A DNA stretch of 64,000 bases from assembly GCA_028285465.1 (NCBI GenBank), contig JANQPD010000030.1, positions 62,001 through 126,000 of the forward strand. The letters are read 5' to 3'. This document shows positions 20,693 to 33,832 of the stretch, piece by piece; position 1 is the stretch's first letter; each line of letters starts with the position of its first letter. Position numbers and translations under genes: made by a program. The notes below the pieces were generated by a model. The model made no database searches and was not told the origin of the DNA. It worked only from the letters and a program-made list of their open reading frames with translations. Source of the DNA: Owenweeksia sp. (lineage in GTDB: Bacteria; Bacteroidota; Bacteroidia; Flavobacteriales; Schleiferiaceae).

Positions 20693-20774
20693 CAACAAAC
20701 GGTACTTCGACAGGCTCAGTAACCGTTTGTTTATCAGTAACCGTTTGTTTACAGGCTCAGTAACCGTTTGTTTA
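20693..20774. repeat. Tandem copies of TAACCGTTTGTTTA with an inverted copy
   Basis: Three direct copies of CAGTAACCGTTTGTTTA (starting near 20717, 20735 and 20758) follow an inverted AACAAACGGT at 20693-20702. A CTTCGACAGGCTCAG motif is merged into the first copy, suggesting local duplication by slippage or element insertion. Confidence 0.75.
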
Positions 20775-21027
20775 GTTATAAAAAGCGTTTCCATAATTTA
20801 CGGATGGCGGATAGCCATGCATGAAAACCTGATCTGCGGATATGGTAATGCTTTACGGAGTAGTACGTAAACTGGCAGTGGTTGTAGTTGTTGGTGTGCA
20901 TAAGGATCAGTTTTTCAATGGACTGCAATGATACGCAATTATTTATAATTGCCCGATAATTTATATTATGTAAAATAGAAAATTCAAAAACAAAGGAGCA
21001 CTAAGCTCCCCTGTTCCTTTTATGGTA

Positions 21028-22347
21028 TTACAAGGCGTCTATTTCCTGCTTGGTAGCAATTGCCTGATCCGTCATTTTCAGCACCCGGTATATTTCCCAC
21101 AACGCCATTAAAGTATTGCGGTCATTTGGGGTGGCCTTGCGGGCCTGCTCAAAATATGGCAAGGCCTGCTTAAAATGCTCCTGCTGTTTTGCCTTAAGTG
21201 CATTGTATTTTTTGGTGGCGTTAAAAGGCAAACCATTCATCTCTTCTGTTACCCCTTTTGCTTTATCATAGTATACCAGGCCGTTCATATACAGTGCATC
21301 CGCATATAAGCTATCCAATGCCACAGCCTTCTGGTAGGCCAACACAGCCTCATCGGGTTTATTCATTTCCGTTTGTAGGATAATGCCTTTGTTGTAGTAG
21401 TAGATCTTGGCCTTGGGGTCGTTCGGATCCTGCGCGATAGCCTGGTCTAAATTTACCAGGGCTTTGTCGTATTCTTTGCTTTTCAGGTAAATGTCGAGCT
21501 CCGTGGTAAGCAAAGCCGCATTTTCCGGGTATTTTTCGCGCCCTTTCTTTACATACTCCATAAAAGAAGCCGTGTCACCGGTTTCCAGGCTCATAGCCGC
21601 AATGCTGATGTAAAACTGAGGACGCAAGTCATTTTTCTCTACCTGGGGTTCTCCATAGCCCCGGTACTCTACAAATTCATCCATCATCTTCTTAGAGGGA
21701 AACTCTGCCACCTGCCCATTGGCCATGTTCTTTGCGCGGTATACATAGCCCTTGTACCCGAGCTCCAATAAACGTTTGTTCAGTTCGATAGACTTCTGGT
21801 ACATCTTGGCGTTTTGCGCCATCAAAGCCGCATTATACAGCGTACTGCTATCGGTTTGATTGTTCAGCATCCGCAAGTTATACGTCTTCATAAAAGCCGC
21901 GTAAGCAGGCTCATAAGCCTGTGCCTGGTAGTTGTCCAGGCCAATGTTGTTGTATAGGGTAGCTACGGTGGGCAGCAAGGTCTTGGCGTCATCCGAGTAC
22001 TTCTCCTTCCCTAGCTTTTCTTCGTAGGCCACGGTTTCCATCAGGTATTTCTCTGCTTTGGCAAGGGCTTCGGCATCCAGGGCCCGCACCTCGGCTTTTT
22101 CGCTTTCGGCAATGGCCAGGTTGATCTTACCCGCATAAAACAAGTATTTCCGCATGTCTTTATACGAGATCTCGGCTTCCGGTTTGGTGCTAATGATACT
22201 GCCTGCTTCATCTATATACTTTTTGGCAGCTGCAAGGTCATTGTTGCGGTCCATGGCGATTACCGCACTGCTGATTACCGGTCCTTCCTGCGCCCGGGCA
22301 GAAAATCCAAAAGCCACCAGGGCCATTAACATCACTAGTCTCTTCAT
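21028..22347 (-). CDS. Secreted tetratricopeptide-repeat protein
   Basis: 439 residues with a signal peptide (LVMLMALVAFGFSARAQ). About eight TPR-like helical pairs follow, for example YNNIGLDNYQAQAYEPAYAA and YNKGIILQTEMNKPDEAVLA. Such periplasmic TPR proteins are common in Bacteroidota as scaffolds, but no partner is evident here. It stands alone; the next gene upstream is divergent across a 236-base gap. Confidence 0.85.
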   Translation of the reverse strand: MKRLVMLMALVAFGFSARAQEGPVISSAVIAMDRNNDLAAAKKYIDEAGSIISTKPEAEISYKDMRKYLFYAGKINLAIAESEKAEVRALDAEALAKAEKYLMETVAYEEKLGKEKYSDDAKTLLPTVATLYNNIGLDNYQAQAYEPAYAAFMKTYNLRMLNNQTDSSTLYNAALMAQNAKMYQKSIELNKRLLELGYKGYVYRAKNMANGQVAEFPSKKMMDEFVEYRGYGEPQVEKNDLRPQFYISIAAMSLETGDTASFMEYVKKGREKYPENAALLTTELDIYLKSKEYDKALVNLDQAIAQDPNDPKAKIYYYNKGIILQTEMNKPDEAVLAYQKAVALDSLYADALYMNGLVYYDKAKGVTEEMNGLPFNATKKYNALKAKQQEHFKQALPYFEQARKATPNDRNTLMALWEIYRVLKMTDQAIATKQEIDAL

Positions 22348-22583
22348 GTGTATTTGTTTAGATATTTTTTAGCTCGCTACGCGTATTCCTTTTAAGGGGT
22401 TTTTCCCCCGATCGGTTGGGTACCGCCCGCAAAACTACTATTTTGACGCTTTATAACCCATTAATGTGCCAAAAATGGTCATACCTTAGTTAGAAGAAAT
22501 TTTAGTAAAAAGGTTGCTTCTTGAAAACCTTAGGTTCGTTTGTAGGTTATATCTTGCAGAAATAAATTAAACATACCTGATAT

Positions 22584-22883
22584 ATGAAATGGGACATACA
22601 AACGGTAGGCTTTGACGCCACCGAAGCCTTGCACACCTATACGAAAGACAAAGTAGGACAGTTGAATAAGTTCTATGACCAGATCGTGGGCGCGGAAGTA
22701 TACCTGAAACTGGAATACAACGACAAAGGTGACAATAAGGTAGCCGATATAAAGCTGAACATTCCCGGCAACGACATCATGGCAAGCAGCCGCAGCGATA
22801 AGTTTGAAGCTAGTGTAAGCGAAAGCATTGAAAAACTCAAGCGCCAGCTCCGCAAGCTTAAGACCAAGATGGAGGTACGCTAA
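22584..22883 (+). CDS. hpf: Ribosome hibernation-promoting factor, short HPF/RaiA family
   Basis: 99 residues. The fold signature is complete: MKWDIQTVGFDATEALHTYT, a basic central region and the C-terminal helix SESIEKLKRQLRKLKTKMEV that contacts 16S rRNA. Short members block the decoding centre or promote 100S dimers in stationary phase. Only the N-terminal domain is present, as in short HPF/YfiA. A weak TATATCTTGC in the leader (about 22545) could be a -7 promoter element. A terminator follows directly, so the gene is monocistronic. Confidence 0.9.
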   Translation: MKWDIQTVGFDATEALHTYTKDKVGQLNKFYDQIVGAEVYLKLEYNDKGDNKVADIKLNIPGNDIMASSRSDKFEASVSESIEKLKRQLRKLKTKMEVR

Positions 22884-22907
22884 CCCTTGTAAAGAATAGT
22901 TAATGGA

Positions 22908-22938
22908 TTCCTTTCTGTTTTTCGGAAAGGGATTTTTT
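22908..22938 (+). terminator. Rho-independent terminator of hpf
   Basis: Stem CCTTTC / GAAAGG (extendable by two pairs) with a T-rich loop and a following TTTTTT at 22933-22938. It starts 25 bases after the hpf stop. Confidence 0.8.
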
Positions 22939-23390
22939 GTTTTGGTACCGGGCTTCGACAGGCTCAGCCCGCTTTGTTGCTCATTTACAAAAGGTTAAAT
23001 ACATAGGCCAAATTGATAGCTAGAAAAAAGACCAGCAGGCTATCGCGGAGCGGAACCAGCTTACAACTGAAGGAAAGCCCATGCTATTATTATGGGCTGT
23101 CATCTCATTAATACCGCTTAATGATCCGATGAAATACTACTAGAAAAGAGAGAGAGGGCTGAGCTTGTCGAAGCCCGCTTTGTTGCCCATTGTAAACGGA
23201 AAGAGTTTATACAAATACAATGTCCAATCAATGGCAAGAAAAAAAATCGATAAATTATGGTAGAGTTAAACACCTCAAATAGCGAGCTGAGCCCATTGGA
23301 ATCCCTCTTATCATTTTAAGCTTTTAGTGATTCCATAAAACATTACCAGGAGAAAAAAGAGGGTTGAGGGCTTCGACAAGCTCAGCCCTC

Positions 23391-23470
23391 CGTTTTGGTT
23401 ATCTTAATATATGAAGTTTCAATATAGGGCAGTAAAAGAAAAACAGAATTGGGCACTTCAATAAATGCAG
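23391..23470. repeat. 80-base exact direct repeat, copy 1
   Basis: Identical base for base to 23912-23991. It lies between two palindrome copies upstream of the GIY-YIG gene. A diverged third copy is at about 24187-24266. Confidence 0.85.
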
Positions 23471-23580
23471 TACAAATCTGTCGAAAAGGGGGCTGAGTAC
23501 TTCGACAGGCCCAATACAGGGCTGTCGAAGCCCGCTTATCTTTTACACTATGATAATGATTCTTGAAACATTACCAGGAA

Positions 23581-23871
23581 TTAACCATCCCCTTTTGATC
23601 CGGAAAGCCCGGGCAGATCTTCCAGGCGCCCTTCTATCAGCGCTTCTTTTTTCTTTCGGCTCCACCCCTGCACTTGTTTTTCCCTGTAGAAAGCGTCATC
23701 AATCCGTTGAAAAACTTCATAGTAGACCAGCGTTACGGGCAAACGTTTTTTGGTGTGCCGGGCGCCTTCTCCTGCCTGGTGCTGCGCCAAACGTACTTCC
23801 AGATACTTGGTACTACCGGTGTAGTAGCTGCCATCCGCACATTTCAGTATGTACATATATCCCCTAGCCAT
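23581..23871 (-). CDS. GIY-YIG nuclease-domain protein
   Basis: 96 residues, a single GIY-YIG domain. Catalytic features: GYMYILK...SYYTGST (GIY and YIG equivalents), Arg in YLEVRLAQH, Tyr in LVYYEVF, and Glu in FYREKQVQGWSR. This is the UPF0213/YhbQ-like length, with no DNA-binding extension. The gene is enclosed by an 80-base exact direct repeat (23391-23470 and 23912-23991) and by many palindromes. The nuclease may help spread or maintain these elements, as RAYT proteins do for REP sequences; this is inference. Confidence 0.85.
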   Translation of the reverse strand: MARGYMYILKCADGSYYTGSTKYLEVRLAQHQAGEGARHTKKRLPVTLVYYEVFQRIDDAFYREKQVQGWSRKKKEALIEGRLEDLPGLSGSKGDG

Positions 23872-23911
23872 AAATGCCTTGTTAAACGGGCTTCGACAGG
23901 CTCAGCCCTCC

Positions 23912-23991
23912 CGTTTTGGTTATCTTAATATATGAAGTTTCAATATAGGGCAGTAAAAGAAAAACAGAATTGGGCACTTCAATAAATGCAG
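23912..23991. repeat. 80-base exact direct repeat, copy 2
   Basis: Second copy of 23391-23470, on the other side of the GIY-YIG gene and 521 bases away start to start. Confidence 0.85.
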
Positions 23992-24372
23992 GCAGTACAG
24001 GCCTGTCGAAAAGGGGCTTCGACAAGCTCAGCCCCCAGTTGCTCATTACAAAAGGAAAGGACTTACATATTACGTAAAGCCAAACCGTTGGCGAAAAGCA
24101 AAATCGAAAAGAAGTTATGGGAGGGGTTGAGGGCTTCGACAAGCTCAGCCCTCCCATTTTGGTTATCTTAAATATGCGAAGTCCTCCCGTTTTGGTATCT
24201 TAATACGTGAAGTTCTTCAATGTAGGCAATAAAAGAAAACAAAGTTGAACACTGCTATAAACGCAGGCAGTACAGGCCTGTCGAAAAGGGGCTTCGACAA
24301 GCTCAGCCCTCAGTTGCCCATTATAAATGTAAAGGGGTTACATAACAGCGGGCTGAGCTTGCCGAAGCCCTA

Positions 24373-29603: not shown

Positions 29604-30623
29604 CTATCGCTCTTCTGCCGCTATACTGGTAAGCAATTGCACGGCATTTTTCATTTTGCTTAATGTTTCCAGTGCGGGCATGCCGGGCGCATTGGAGTAA
29701 GACGCATGTAACGGAAAAGCACCCTTGCTTAAAAATTCTTTTAAGGGAGATATTTCTGCGCTAAACACACAGTATTCCAATACATGCCGGTTCATTTGAT
29801 ACGCACAGCAAAGGGCAACAAATGAATGGAGCGTATCTACAAAAATGAGCAGCTTACTGCTTGCTGCCTGTAAATAGGCTCCCGTAAGGGCGGCTGTTTC
29901 AAACCCTCCGAATACCGTTAAATTCGTAATCGGATCGTGTGATTTTGGATGTTTTTTACATGCCCGGTCCAGGGTTTCGGCCTGGTGCCGGCCAATTTTT
30001 ATTTTAAGACCGCCTAGCAGGTCTGCTATTTCCAGATCAAAGAGAGCGGCTAGCAAAGCCAAAGTGCTGTACTTATCCCCTGCCCCCATGCTGCAAAGCG
30101 CCAATAAGCCCGTACCTGACTTTTTCTTTAGCGTCACTTCTTCAGCGCCCCTCAGCATGGCTTTTTCCGCCTGGGCACTCGTCATAGCCGGTTGCGCATA
30201 AAAATTTTGGGTACTCTCCCCCAGTCGCCTGTCGCTAAAACCATTTCCCTTTTTAAACCAATAGCTGAAAGAGCCCTCGTGTGGATGGTTCATGCCCATA
30301 TCTACCAGGTGTAAACCCACCCGGTTTGCTTTGCTCAGAATGCTAAGCGGTGCATAGCCATTAAGCATATCCGCAAAGGCTTCATGGCTTTCTTCGTAAC
30401 GCTTCTCTTCGCCCATTTGCCTACATATGCCATGGTCTGAAGCAAAAAGCAGCAAACAGGGTTTCTTGTAGAGGGGTTCTGTAGTGTGTTGTACCAAAGC
30501 AGCCTTTAGAGCAAGGGGGGCTAAAAGACCCCAAGCCCCGAAGGGCTTGGTGTTTTTCTCTATCAGCGCCTGCACTTTCTTCTGTAGTGTGCTGTCTACA
30601 ATGCTTTCTATCGGGATGTTCAT
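29604..30623 (-). CDS. CobT-like nicotinate-nucleotide:base phosphoribosyltransferase, divergent
   Basis: 339 residues. N-terminal pattern KPFGAWGLLAPLALKAALVQ and LLLFASDHGI match CobT, which makes alpha-ribazole phosphate for the lower ligand of cobalamin. The usual GxGNTT loop is replaced by CSMGAGDKYSTLALLAAL, and the C-terminal LGEGxGA motif holding the catalytic Glu (Glu317 in Salmonella CobT) reads NAPGMPAL. The protein may therefore be an inactive or altered-specificity relative. It is the last gene of the cobalamin operon, 3 bases after the BtuG-like stop. Confidence 0.75.
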   Translation of the reverse strand: MNIPIESIVDSTLQKKVQALIEKNTKPFGAWGLLAPLALKAALVQHTTEPLYKKPCLLLFASDHGICRQMGEEKRYEESHEAFADMLNGYAPLSILSKANRVGLHLVDMGMNHPHEGSFSYWFKKGNGFSDRRLGESTQNFYAQPAMTSAQAEKAMLRGAEEVTLKKKSGTGLLALCSMGAGDKYSTLALLAALFDLEIADLLGGLKIKIGRHQAETLDRACKKHPKSHDPITNLTVFGGFETAALTGAYLQAASSKLLIFVDTLHSFVALCCAYQMNRHVLEYCVFSAEISPLKEFLSKGAFPLHASYSNAPGMPALETLSKMKNAVQLLTSIAAEER

Positions 30624-30626
30624 GTT

Positions 30627-31679
30627 CTATTTAAAGCCAAACGAGCGGGGAATAAGTCCTCCTTTAAACTGGTCGAGGAGCTTTCCGTTAGCGTCATAAC
30701 GGTATACATTGCCATTTGCGAGCTCGTCCAAAGGGTCTGAAACATATACTTCATTGTTTACTCCGTCAACACCCAGCCCGTAGAAATCGCCCTGGGCAAA
30801 AGGAACGATCGGCAGTACCGAATCCATAACACTCATAGTGTATAGGTCTCCTCTACTGTCATCCAAATAGTAGATTGTAGATCCACTTCTATCAATTTCC
30901 ATACGTTCAGGCTTCTTTAATACATCCGTAAACACCATTTCCCTTTCTATCTCATTCGAATCGAGGTTGTATACGACCATAGAGGCCGGTGTGTTGTTTA
31001 CCGGGTTTGTAGGATCTGGGATACCCGTGCAATACACCCACAGCAGGCCGTTTCTATCTTTTGCCAGCGCAAGCGGGTTATGGCCTACCCATAAGGTATC
31101 GGTTACCTGGTCTGTATTGCTGTCAAAAACCAAGACCGTACTATCCGCACCAAAGCCTCCGCTGTTTGCCACGTACACTTTGTCGTCTATCGTGAGGATG
31201 GCTTCAGGCCCGGGGCCCGTAGCTACCAGCTTCTCTACTTTCCCGGTCTGTGCATTGAGTACATGTATGGCATTGCTGGCCCAATCTGCCACATAATACT
31301 TTTCAGCAGATACTTTCTCTATAAAGCGGGGGCTGCCCAGGTCTTCAAAGCGGGCTTCCACTTTTAACGTATTGGTATTACACATAATCACACTCCCCGT
31401 GCCGTTGATTACCAGAAAGGCACGGTCGCCATCGATAAACACCTGGCTAAGCACGTTGCCAGGAGGTATGAGGTTGGCTTTTTGAAAAACATTCTTTTCC
31501 GTAGTTCTGGATCCGGTGCTGTACGAAATAATGCTCCCTGTTCCGCCCTGGAAGGCGCCTTCATTGGCAATAAGCACAGCCGCGGTAAAAGCAGGGTTTT
31601 CGCCGGTGTCAGGATCCTCTTTACAAGCACCGAGGAGTAGCGCACCAATGGCTAAAAAGATGAATAGGTTTGTTTTCAT
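30627..31679 (-). CDS. BtuG-like surface lipoprotein, beta-propeller (DUF5074-like)
   Basis: 350 residues from the ATG at 31679. The lipoprotein signal ends LLLGAC. Seven or so propeller-blade repeats follow, with blade-type sequences such as KVYVANSGGFGADSTVLVFD and YVADWASNAIHVLNAQTGK. In Bacteroides, DUF5074-type propellers (BtuG) are surface lipoproteins that capture cobalamin and hand it to BtuB. Position between a BtuB remnant and CobT supports that role here. A TTG at 31685 is an alternative start. Binding of cobalamin itself is inferred from context. Confidence 0.8.
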   Translation of the reverse strand: MKTNLFIFLAIGALLLGACKEDPDTGENPAFTAAVLIANEGAFQGGTGSIISYSTGSRTTEKNVFQKANLIPPGNVLSQVFIDGDRAFLVINGTGSVIMCNTNTLKVEARFEDLGSPRFIEKVSAEKYYVADWASNAIHVLNAQTGKVEKLVATGPGPEAILTIDDKVYVANSGGFGADSTVLVFDSNTDQVTDTLWVGHNPLALAKDRNGLLWVYCTGIPDPTNPVNNTPASMVVYNLDSNEIEREMVFTDVLKKPERMEIDRSGSTIYYLDDSRGDLYTMSVMDSVLPIVPFAQGDFYGLGVDGVNNEVYVSDPLDELANGNVYRYDANGKLLDQFKGGLIPRSFGFK

Positions 31680-31681
31680 AG

Positions 31682-31933
31682 TCAATAGTTAAACTTCACA
31701 TTAAAATTAATCCCCGGCATGGGCTGAAACCATTGCATTTGGTAAAATTAAGCACATGCAGAGAAGGTACAAGCGCGGAACGCTTAAATCTTTGGCGATA
31801 CGCTACACCTATGTAGTTCACCCAACAGGGGCCCAGTTAAAAACGGATCGTTTTCACTCGTAGTGTATGCCCTGCCGTTGTACCGTGTGGTAAGGTAAAA
31901 AGAAAGCTGCGAAAGTTGAGGCTGAACCACCCT
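31682..31933 (-). pseudogene. Remnant of a BtuB-like TonB-dependent receptor
   Basis: Three frame segments together spell the end of a TonB-dependent receptor barrel: SQLSFYLTTRYNGRAYTTSE (first frame, near 31910-31850), NYIGVAYRQRFKRSALVPSL then HVLNFT (second frame), and MQWFQPMPGINFNVKFNY plus stop (third frame, ending at 31682). The order, the MPGxNF closing motif and the final aromatic strand are diagnostic. At least two frameshifts and the loss of the first roughly 600 codons make it non-functional. The stop is 2 bases before the BtuG-like start. So the receptor that used to lead the operon has been deleted. Confidence 0.8.
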
Positions 31934-31944
31934 TTATCTATTAA

Positions 31945-32140
31945 AAGCCGCATGTAAATGAGTAGCTTACCCGGAAATTTTCCGAAATAGCTTCCGTGCC
32001 AGCGGGTCGGTTTCAACCCGGATTCTCGCCTTAAAGCAACTGCGACTTAACTCCTTGGCTATTGACCTGGTCATGCATACGGGCTAAAAACATGCAGGTC
32101 CTGCTTGCTCTTTTCCTTTCTGCCCTCACAGGTTCAAAAG
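31945..32140 (-). promoter_or_regulatory. Probable cobalamin riboswitch, partly degenerate
   Basis: On the minus strand, the core at 32025-32002 reads GAATCCGGGTTGAAACC then GACCCGC, which follows the conserved GAA..GGTG.AA.CC...CCCGC pattern of B12 riboswitches. A further GGCACGG and a distal ACATGC near 31952 could be later conserved parts. Several positions depart from consensus. Its location, after recN and before receptor/BtuG/CobT genes on the same strand, fits. A covariance-model scan would settle it. Confidence 0.5.
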
Positions 32141-32179
32141 CCTTTGCCCCTTGAAAATACACGAAAGCTTTAAAAGCAC

Positions 32180-33832
32180 TTAGCGCGCCAGCATTTCACG
32201 GGCATTTTCCAGCGCTGCCTCCGAAATGCGCGCTCCACTGAGCAGCCGGGCCAGCTCCATTTCACGTTGCTTTTCATCGAGGACAATAAGCCGGGTGTGG
32301 GTTTGCCCGGCTGCTGTCTCTTTCAATACTTTATAGTGCCTTTTGCCTTTGGCCGCAATTTGCGGCAGGTGCGTAATGGCTACTACCTGCATCATATGAC
32401 CCATGGTAGATAGGATCTCCCCTATGCTGCCTGCTGTTTCGCCGGATACACCGGCATCAATCTCATCAAAAATTATGGTGGGCAGGTTTTTGCTTTTAGC
32501 CATAATGGCCTTTATGGCCAGCATAACGCGGCTTAGCTCCCCTCCCGAAGCCACCTTGGAAAGGGCTTGTACAGCCTGTCCTTTATTGGCACTAAATTTA
32601 AAAAGCAACTGATCTGCGCCCAGGCGCGTAAACTTATCGGAATGTTCCAGGTGCATGTGCAGTTGGGCGCCCGGCATGTTCAGCCGGCTTAGCATCCCGC
32701 ATATTTCAGCGCTGAGCGCTTCGGCCGCTTCCCTACGCCTGGCAGATAAAACCAGGGCTTGCTTTTTTACCCGCTCCAGGCTTTCTGCATGTCTTTTTTC
32801 CAGGGCTTTCCGGTTTTCTTCCAGCGTGCTCAGTTGCAGTACTTTTTGTTCCAGTGCTTCCTTTTTGTGCAACAAGCCGGCGACATCGCTTACCTGGTGC
32901 TTTTTTTGCAAGGCAAATAGCTTGTTGAGGCGGGCACTTAACTGTTCAGCACGCAGGGGATCTGCCATAGTGTTTTCGGCCAGCTCCTCGAGTTCCATGC
33001 GCATGTCATCCAACTCGATCCCCAGGCTGTTCAACCGCTCGCCCAGCGTTGCATAAGGCCCTTTTAACTGTGCCAGACTGGCCAGTTGTTGCTGGGCTTG
33101 CTGCGCCTGTGTATATGCGCCCAACTCTTCTGTATACAGCAGTTGTACCACCGTGGAAAGCTTATGCTTTATTTCATCGGCATGTGAAAGCGCTTCGAGC
33201 TCTTCTTCCAGGGCCTCTACCTCTCCTTCCTGCAATTGTGCCTCTTCTAACTCATCAAACAAGAACTGTAAGTAGTCGGCATCTCCCGCTTCTTTCGCTG
33301 CAAATGCATCCAGTTCGTATATCTTGTCCTCTAATTCCCTGTAAGAAGCATACGTTTTCTGATACGCAGACAGTACTTCTGCATTGTGCGCAAAACCATC
33401 CAGCAGGGCCATTTGGAAGCCCGTATCTGTGAGCAGGATCGTTTCGTGCTGGCTATGCACATCTATGAGGCTAAACGCCAAGGCATTTAACACGTTCAAG
33501 GTTACAGGCGTATCATTGATAAAGGCACGTGATTTACCCGAGGGGGCAATTTCGCGCCTCAGCAGGGATACCCGCTCAAAGTCAAGATCGTGCTCATCGA
33601 AGAAACCCTTAAGTGCTGCATCCAGAAGAAAATGTGCTTCTACAATACATTTTTCTGCAGGGTTCCGCAACACCTTTACATCTGCCCGCTTGCCAAGCAC
33701 GAGCGCCAAAGCACCCAGTAAAATGGATTTGCCGGCCCCTGTTTCCCCGGTAATTACAGAAAAACCTTTGTCGAAAGACAATTCGAGAGCCTCGATGAGC
33801 GCATAATTCCGTATGTGTAATTCTTGCAACAT
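32180..33832 (-). CDS. recN: DNA repair protein RecN
   Basis: 550 residues from the ATG at 33832 (a TTG three codons earlier is possible). SMC-like ATPase: Walker A ITGETGAGKSILLGAL near residue 30, long coiled coil between about 160 and 370, signature KVASGGELSRVMLAI and Walker B PTIIFDEIDAGVSGE, then the D-loop VVAITHLPQIAAKG. RecN bridges DNA at double-strand breaks for RecA-dependent repair. It is the last gene of the bamD-rpoZ-coaBC-PorD-recN string on the minus strand, a gene order widely kept in Bacteroidota. Confidence 0.95.
   Translation of the reverse strand: MLQELHIRNYALIEALELSFDKGFSVITGETGAGKSILLGALALVLGKRADVKVLRNPAEKCIVEAHFLLDAALKGFFDEHDLDFERVSLLRREIAPSGKSRAFINDTPVTLNVLNALAFSLIDVHSQHETILLTDTGFQMALLDGFAHNAEVLSAYQKTYASYRELEDKIYELDAFAAKEAGDADYLQFLFDELEEAQLQEGEVEALEEELEALSHADEIKHKLSTVVQLLYTEELGAYTQAQQAQQQLASLAQLKGPYATLGERLNSLGIELDDMRMELEELAENTMADPLRAEQLSARLNKLFALQKKHQVSDVAGLLHKKEALEQKVLQLSTLEENRKALEKRHAESLERVKKQALVLSARRREAAEALSAEICGMLSRLNMPGAQLHMHLEHSDKFTRLGADQLLFKFSANKGQAVQALSKVASGGELSRVMLAIKAIMAKSKNLPTIIFDEIDAGVSGETAGSIGEILSTMGHMMQVVAITHLPQIAAKGKRHYKVLKETAAGQTHTRLIVLDEKQREMELARLLSGARISEAALENAREMLAR

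Follow-up and report, generated by a model that had tools for sequence, protein, structure and literature searches.

A btuB remnant lies directly upstream of an intact btuG

The window, by which we mean the whole 64-kb stretch of Owenweeksia sp. DNA that we analysed, carries a fragment of a receptor gene on its minus strand. This fragment sits between recN and btuG1, directly upstream of btuG1, and the locus contains the following features.

32180 to 33832, minus strand: recN, the upstream neighbour, conserved in 13 btuB-less relatives (SMC_N, 5.4e-21; synteny)
31972 to 32179, minus strand: spacer of 208 nt between recN and the remnant, with no recognisable BtuB coding sequence
32094 to 32110, minus strand: 17 nt (GAGCAAGCAGGACCTGC), a possible but unproven trace of the 3' strand of a cobalamin riboswitch
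31682 to 31971, minus strand: btuB1 pseudogene remnant of 0.3 kb, the last ~100 residues of a BtuB-type TonB receptor (frameshift-tolerant DP, hmmsearch, PDB match)
31971 to 31906, 31903 to 31838, 31836 to 31747 and 31744 to 31685, minus strand: the four frame segments of the remnant
Near 31905, 31837 and 31746, minus strand: frame breaks of the remnant, with its stop codon TGA at 31684 to 31682
30627 to 31679, minus strand: btuG1, intact gene for a B12-capture lipoprotein (DUF5074, lipobox LLLGAC)
29604 to 30623, minus strand: cobT-like gene, 3 nt after btuG1 (PF02277, 1.1e-55)

We observed that the fragment from 31971 to 31685 follows one colinear path along positions 539-639 of a 644-position BtuB profile, with a score of 62.5 bits in a frameshift-tolerant DP alignment. 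To build the profile we used 33 BtuBs from relatives within the family and the order, almost all of them encoded beside btuG. By comparison, 150 dinucleotide shuffles scored 15.1 ± 1.9 (maximum 21.6) and the opposite strand scored 12.9. When all six frames were searched with hmmsearch, the remnant frame that holds LTTRYNGRAYTTSENDPF and MQWFQPMPGINFNV matched the profile at E = 6.5e-8. Among 177,635 distinct PDB sequences, the best match was weak (E = 0.02) and colinear. This was 8bmx_C, a TonB receptor chain whose PDB entry has a BtuG-type YncE protein as chain D, and the PMPGINF motif is common to 8bmx_C and the remnant. Judged by these comparisons, the identity of the remnant does not rest on chance motifs.

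An earlier, sequence-only reading of this DNA had described a frameshifted 3' stub of a receptor that ends at 31933 and has lost about 600 codons. The stub is real; it extends to 31971 and comprises 94 codons in four segments, with three frame breaks and zero in-frame stops, and the DP alignment puts the missing part at about 540 codons (about 1.6 kb). Since the plug domain, the signal peptide and the full barrel are missing, we regard 31682 to 31971 as a remnant and not as a BtuB. The joined remnant matched no family in Pfam or NCBIfam and showed no DNA-level similarity to plasmid records. Its stop codon lies 2 nt ahead of the btuG1 ATG (31679), a spacing like that of the intact btuB-btuG pairs of relatives, many of which overlap or nearly touch.

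The product of btuG1 matched PF16819 (3.4e-15) and, by phmmer, the BtuG-type PDB chains 8p97_B (1.2e-37), 8okv_B and 3dsm_A. With a DUF5074 propeller similar to solved BtuGs and a lipobox, it qualifies as a BtuG, in agreement with the earlier view that an intact BtuG adjoins the stub. A TANNTTTG-type (flavobacterial-type) promoter was sought upstream of btuG1 and none was found. The cobT-like gene had likewise been described as intact; similarity to CobT at the equivalog level was not reached (TIGR03160, 170 bits vs an NCBIfam cut-off of 319). In a cobT tree its neighbours are the cobTs of operons that contain btuB, though support for this placement is weak (80/89). The match of the cobT-like protein (29604-30623) to DBI_PRT stops at position 272 of the 329 in the profile. 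The protein's C-terminus (SNAPGMPALETL) is without the GEG[ST]GA-like motif that holds the catalytic glutamate, and relatives vary there too. Elsewhere in the window, nine copies of a short interspersed repeat (GCTTCGACAAGCTCAG; at most two mismatches, both strands) occur at 20704-24368 vs 0.03 expected, and ORFs across this region read GLSLSKP.

The earlier reading also had a riboswitch region abutting the stub, which our searches did not bear out. No Rfam family, RF00174 included, was found near the remnant at gathering score or E <= 10 in a search of the 64-kb window, and a DP search of the 208-nt spacer for N-terminal pieces of btuB scored no better than shuffles. Using an aptamer profile built from 23 riboswitches of the relatives, the 17 nt at 32110-32094 scored 17.4 bits. 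They resemble the 3' end of the aptamer in the expected place and order; similar scores occur elsewhere in the window, the site ranks only fifth on its two strands, and it is no better than several chance matches. The whole-aptamer DP score at the locus, 23.9, was attained or passed in 11 of 500 shuffles. A decayed riboswitch upstream of the remnant is therefore unproven, and the signal is suggestive of one at best.

The only intact BtuB of the genome is encoded in a second operon

The source assembly is 99.97% complete and consists of 99 contigs, and the remnant lies inside a contig of 205 kb. A search of the whole genome for BtuB gave exactly one match, an intact BtuB (644 aa; contig C95, 42549-44480). 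Its gene is directly behind the genome's only cobalamin riboswitch, the one site that passes in a whole-genome RF00174 search, and the operon runs in the order riboswitch, btuB, two T9SS-sorted proteins and a BtuG of its own (BtuG2). The sequence-only reading had proposed a genome-wide search for another BtuB and had offered two options, that uptake is lost or that another receptor serves it. The C95 receptor, with its riboswitch and BtuG, favours the second option; the first fits poorly with an intact C95 operon and with MetH in a genome where MetE was not found. Because MetH is present and searches for MetE and CobS found neither, imported corrinoid is presumably needed for methionine in the source cell, with the C95 receptor as the candidate for its import.

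The two T9SS-sorted proteins between btuB and btuG of the C95 operon are recorded at L051:7392-9556. The matching operon of one relative, G017, has a DUF4465 protein between btuB and btuG; the DUF4465 family is reported to bind B12 (PMC13398666). A search of the source genome for FecCD, a BtuC-type permease, gave only two weak matches, of 39.8 and 23 bits (C21:65653-67550).

The order btuB then btuG, like the lipoprotein and propeller family, is that of Bacteroidetes btuB-btuG loci such as loci 1-3 of B. thetaiotaomicron. The C95 operon shares this plan, with its riboswitch and, between btuB and btuG, the T9SS-sorted proteins. The locus in the window differs: it has only a fragment of btuB, and a riboswitch could not be detected there.

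Relatives carry recN and btuG without btuB

Genomes of the same family and order, none of them of the same genus, were used for comparison. In 13 family relatives, recN is directly followed by btuG with no btuB between them, and the cobT-like gene comes next after btuG in 12 of these (G036 gave matches to recN and btuG alone). Between recN and btuG the gaps measure 55-179 nt. A riboswitch was sought in 8 of the 13 loci and none was found, and no trace of btuB in the gaps was clearly above shuffles; the gap of L056 scored 18.6, where 40 shuffles reached at most 17.2, and the match fell at an internal position of the BtuB profile. Among the 14 btuB-less recN-btuG loci, a receptor fossil is found only in the window. 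All 14 genomes encode BtuB at another locus, that of G067 being seen only as pieces. Further genomes in the family carry riboswitch-btuB-btuG, several with cobT, at loci without recN in view. An alignment to relatives with an intact operon had been suggested as a way to map the deletion; the 13 relatives show the btuB-less locus, and no relative with an intact recN-btuB-btuG-cobT order was found.

Across 398 genomes of the order, the BtuGs closest to BtuG1 came from the same family. In the BtuG tree, the 14 recN-locus BtuGs share one branch (100/99), and 13 of them form a clade without BtuG1 (99/96), so that the window represents the earliest-branching member of the btuB-less group.

BtuG1 keeps residues that vary in long-orphaned BtuGs

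We defined near-invariant sites on 32 BtuGs that are encoded near a BtuB. BtuG1 keeps all of them (15/15). Seven are neither Gly or Pro nor the lipobox Cys, namely N54, E55, F58, N84, N107, R133 and Y316 in BtuG2 numbering. On this seven-site score, paired BtuGs reach 6-7 and BtuG1 reaches 7, and the 13 other orphans retain 3-5. The long-orphaned proteins have differing replacements at F58 and N107, and their Gly and Pro positions are mostly kept. Since these 13 BtuGs are one clade, the changes do not represent 13 independent events. In the published structure work on BtuG2, the loop Asn54-Thr64 grips cyanocobalamin, Tyr316 is placed at the ligand, and the hydrogen-bonding residues are reported to be highly conserved (PMC10404256); we infer that N84, N107 and R133 also contact B12. 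The simplest account of the pattern would be that, after loss of the receptor, constraint on the BtuG ligand site relaxes or the site is remodelled. Since BtuG1 is intact and its B12-binding signature is preserved, corrinoid binding by this protein at the cell surface probably continues, or did until recently; both its expression and its B12 binding are predictions from sequence. A separate case is the BtuG2 of G003 (L095:6917-7960), which keeps only 11 of the 15 near-invariant sites though it is encoded beside BtuB and which has the longest end branch in the BtuG tree.

Discussion

We asked how old the loss is. Over 94 columns, the remnant is about as similar to intact BtuBs as these are to one another (rank 19 of 34), and the end branch of BtuG1 measures 0.79 changes per column. 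In a simulation, zero stops in 94 codons had a probability of 0.16 at 0.2 substitutions per site and of 0.045 at 0.5, which speaks against more than about 0.4-0.5 neutral substitutions per site in the remnant and makes for a soft argument about its age. A single loss of btuB in the common ancestor of the 14 loci would make the remnant as old as that deep split. Because the remnant is without stops and its similarity to intact BtuBs is still typical, a separate and later loss in the lineage of the window is the better reading, though not a proven one.

We therefore favour, at a probability of roughly three in four, a recent and separate loss of btuB in which the C95 BtuB-BtuG pair covers uptake and BtuG1 has kept its signature while the long-orphaned BtuGs drifted. 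This reading builds on what was observed: the btuB remnant, the presence of only one intact BtuB in the genome, the synteny, the topology of the BtuG tree and the pattern of conserved residues. An ancestral btuB-btuG-cobT operon would have stood downstream of recN; it is reconstructed rather than seen, because no genome with the intact order was found. A deletion would then have taken away roughly 540 codons from the start of btuB, and the remainder would have been broken by three small indels, in an order of events that is itself reconstructed, leaving a non-functional tail directly in front of btuG1. The loss would have been tolerated because the second, riboswitch-controlled BtuB-BtuG operon imports B12. 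In the 13 relatives, the same btuB would have been erased completely and earlier, with drift of their orphan BtuGs at ligand-site residues. The source genome thus seems to catch a BtuB-BtuG transport pair in the course of being dismantled, as relatives in which the receptor is erased show changes at conserved vitamin-binding positions of BtuG.

More tentatively, the recN-linked btuG-cobT module without BtuB or riboswitch may be a stable, repurposed surface system of this flavobacterial family whose orphan BtuGs have ceased to bind B12 in the usual manner; the window would then be a transitional form, its receptor newly lost and its ligand site not yet altered. It is somewhat less probable that the whole locus is decaying and that btuG1 and cobT, recently orphaned and not yet broken, have no remaining function. 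Such decay would be consistent with the complete second operon in the cell, the lack of a detectable riboswitch at the locus or of a flavobacterial-type promoter upstream of btuG1, and the absence of CobS. It is at odds with the 12 other family genomes that keep btuG then cobT as open frames without btuB, and with the 15 near-invariant sites retained in btuG1. We consider it unlikely, to a slightly greater degree, that BtuG1 acts in trans as a second lid or capture protein for the C95 BtuB: the full B12-binding signature and the single remaining BtuB would suit this role, but that BtuB has a co-encoded BtuG2 to which BtuG1 is only 29% identical, and BtuBG pairs are stable complexes with a large interface (PMC10404256).

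There is little to recommend the view that the fragment derives from the end of an unrelated TonB receptor or was copied from the end of the C95 btuB. General patterns are indeed shared among the C-terminal barrel strands of TonB receptors, yet the best PDB match, which has the same PMPGINF motif, is the receptor chain in a BtuB-BtuG complex, and the fragment occupies the operon position of btuB; its identity to the C95 BtuB, which is not its closest BtuB, is 28% over 92 columns. A fault of sequencing or assembly in a receptor gene that is really intact, a possibility raised by the earlier reading and conceivable in a draft of 99 contigs, is very improbable because about 1.6 kb is missing along with three separate indels inside a 205-kb contig and the relatives also lack btuB at the locus, and the genome-wide BtuB search found no other copy able to hold the missing part.

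The favoured reading, a recent and separate btuB loss, has much in common with receptor pseudogenes and gene-loss remnants generally, which likewise show a large deletion with frameshifts, intact partners and a paralogue that covers the function. In itself, a receptor pseudogene whose function a paralogue covers is nothing unusual; what deserves attention is the btuB-less BtuG lineage together with its transitional form. The difference from the general case is a family-wide btuB-less clade in which a later state can be seen, with the partner protein changed as well. Judged by titles and abstracts, the open-licence papers listed for btuB pseudogenes or for btuG with cobT do not deal with this arrangement. 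BtuG has been described as almost always encoded with BtuB, which it caps, and of 112 btuG homologues in gut Bacteroidetes, 106 lay within btuB operons, the operon annotation of the other six being affected by incomplete assemblies (PMC6143338). Here, BtuG persists without BtuB at its locus, and a count of BtuGs is not a count of transporters. The series from paired to freshly orphaned to long-orphaned proteins makes BtuG function without a transporter of its own directly testable.
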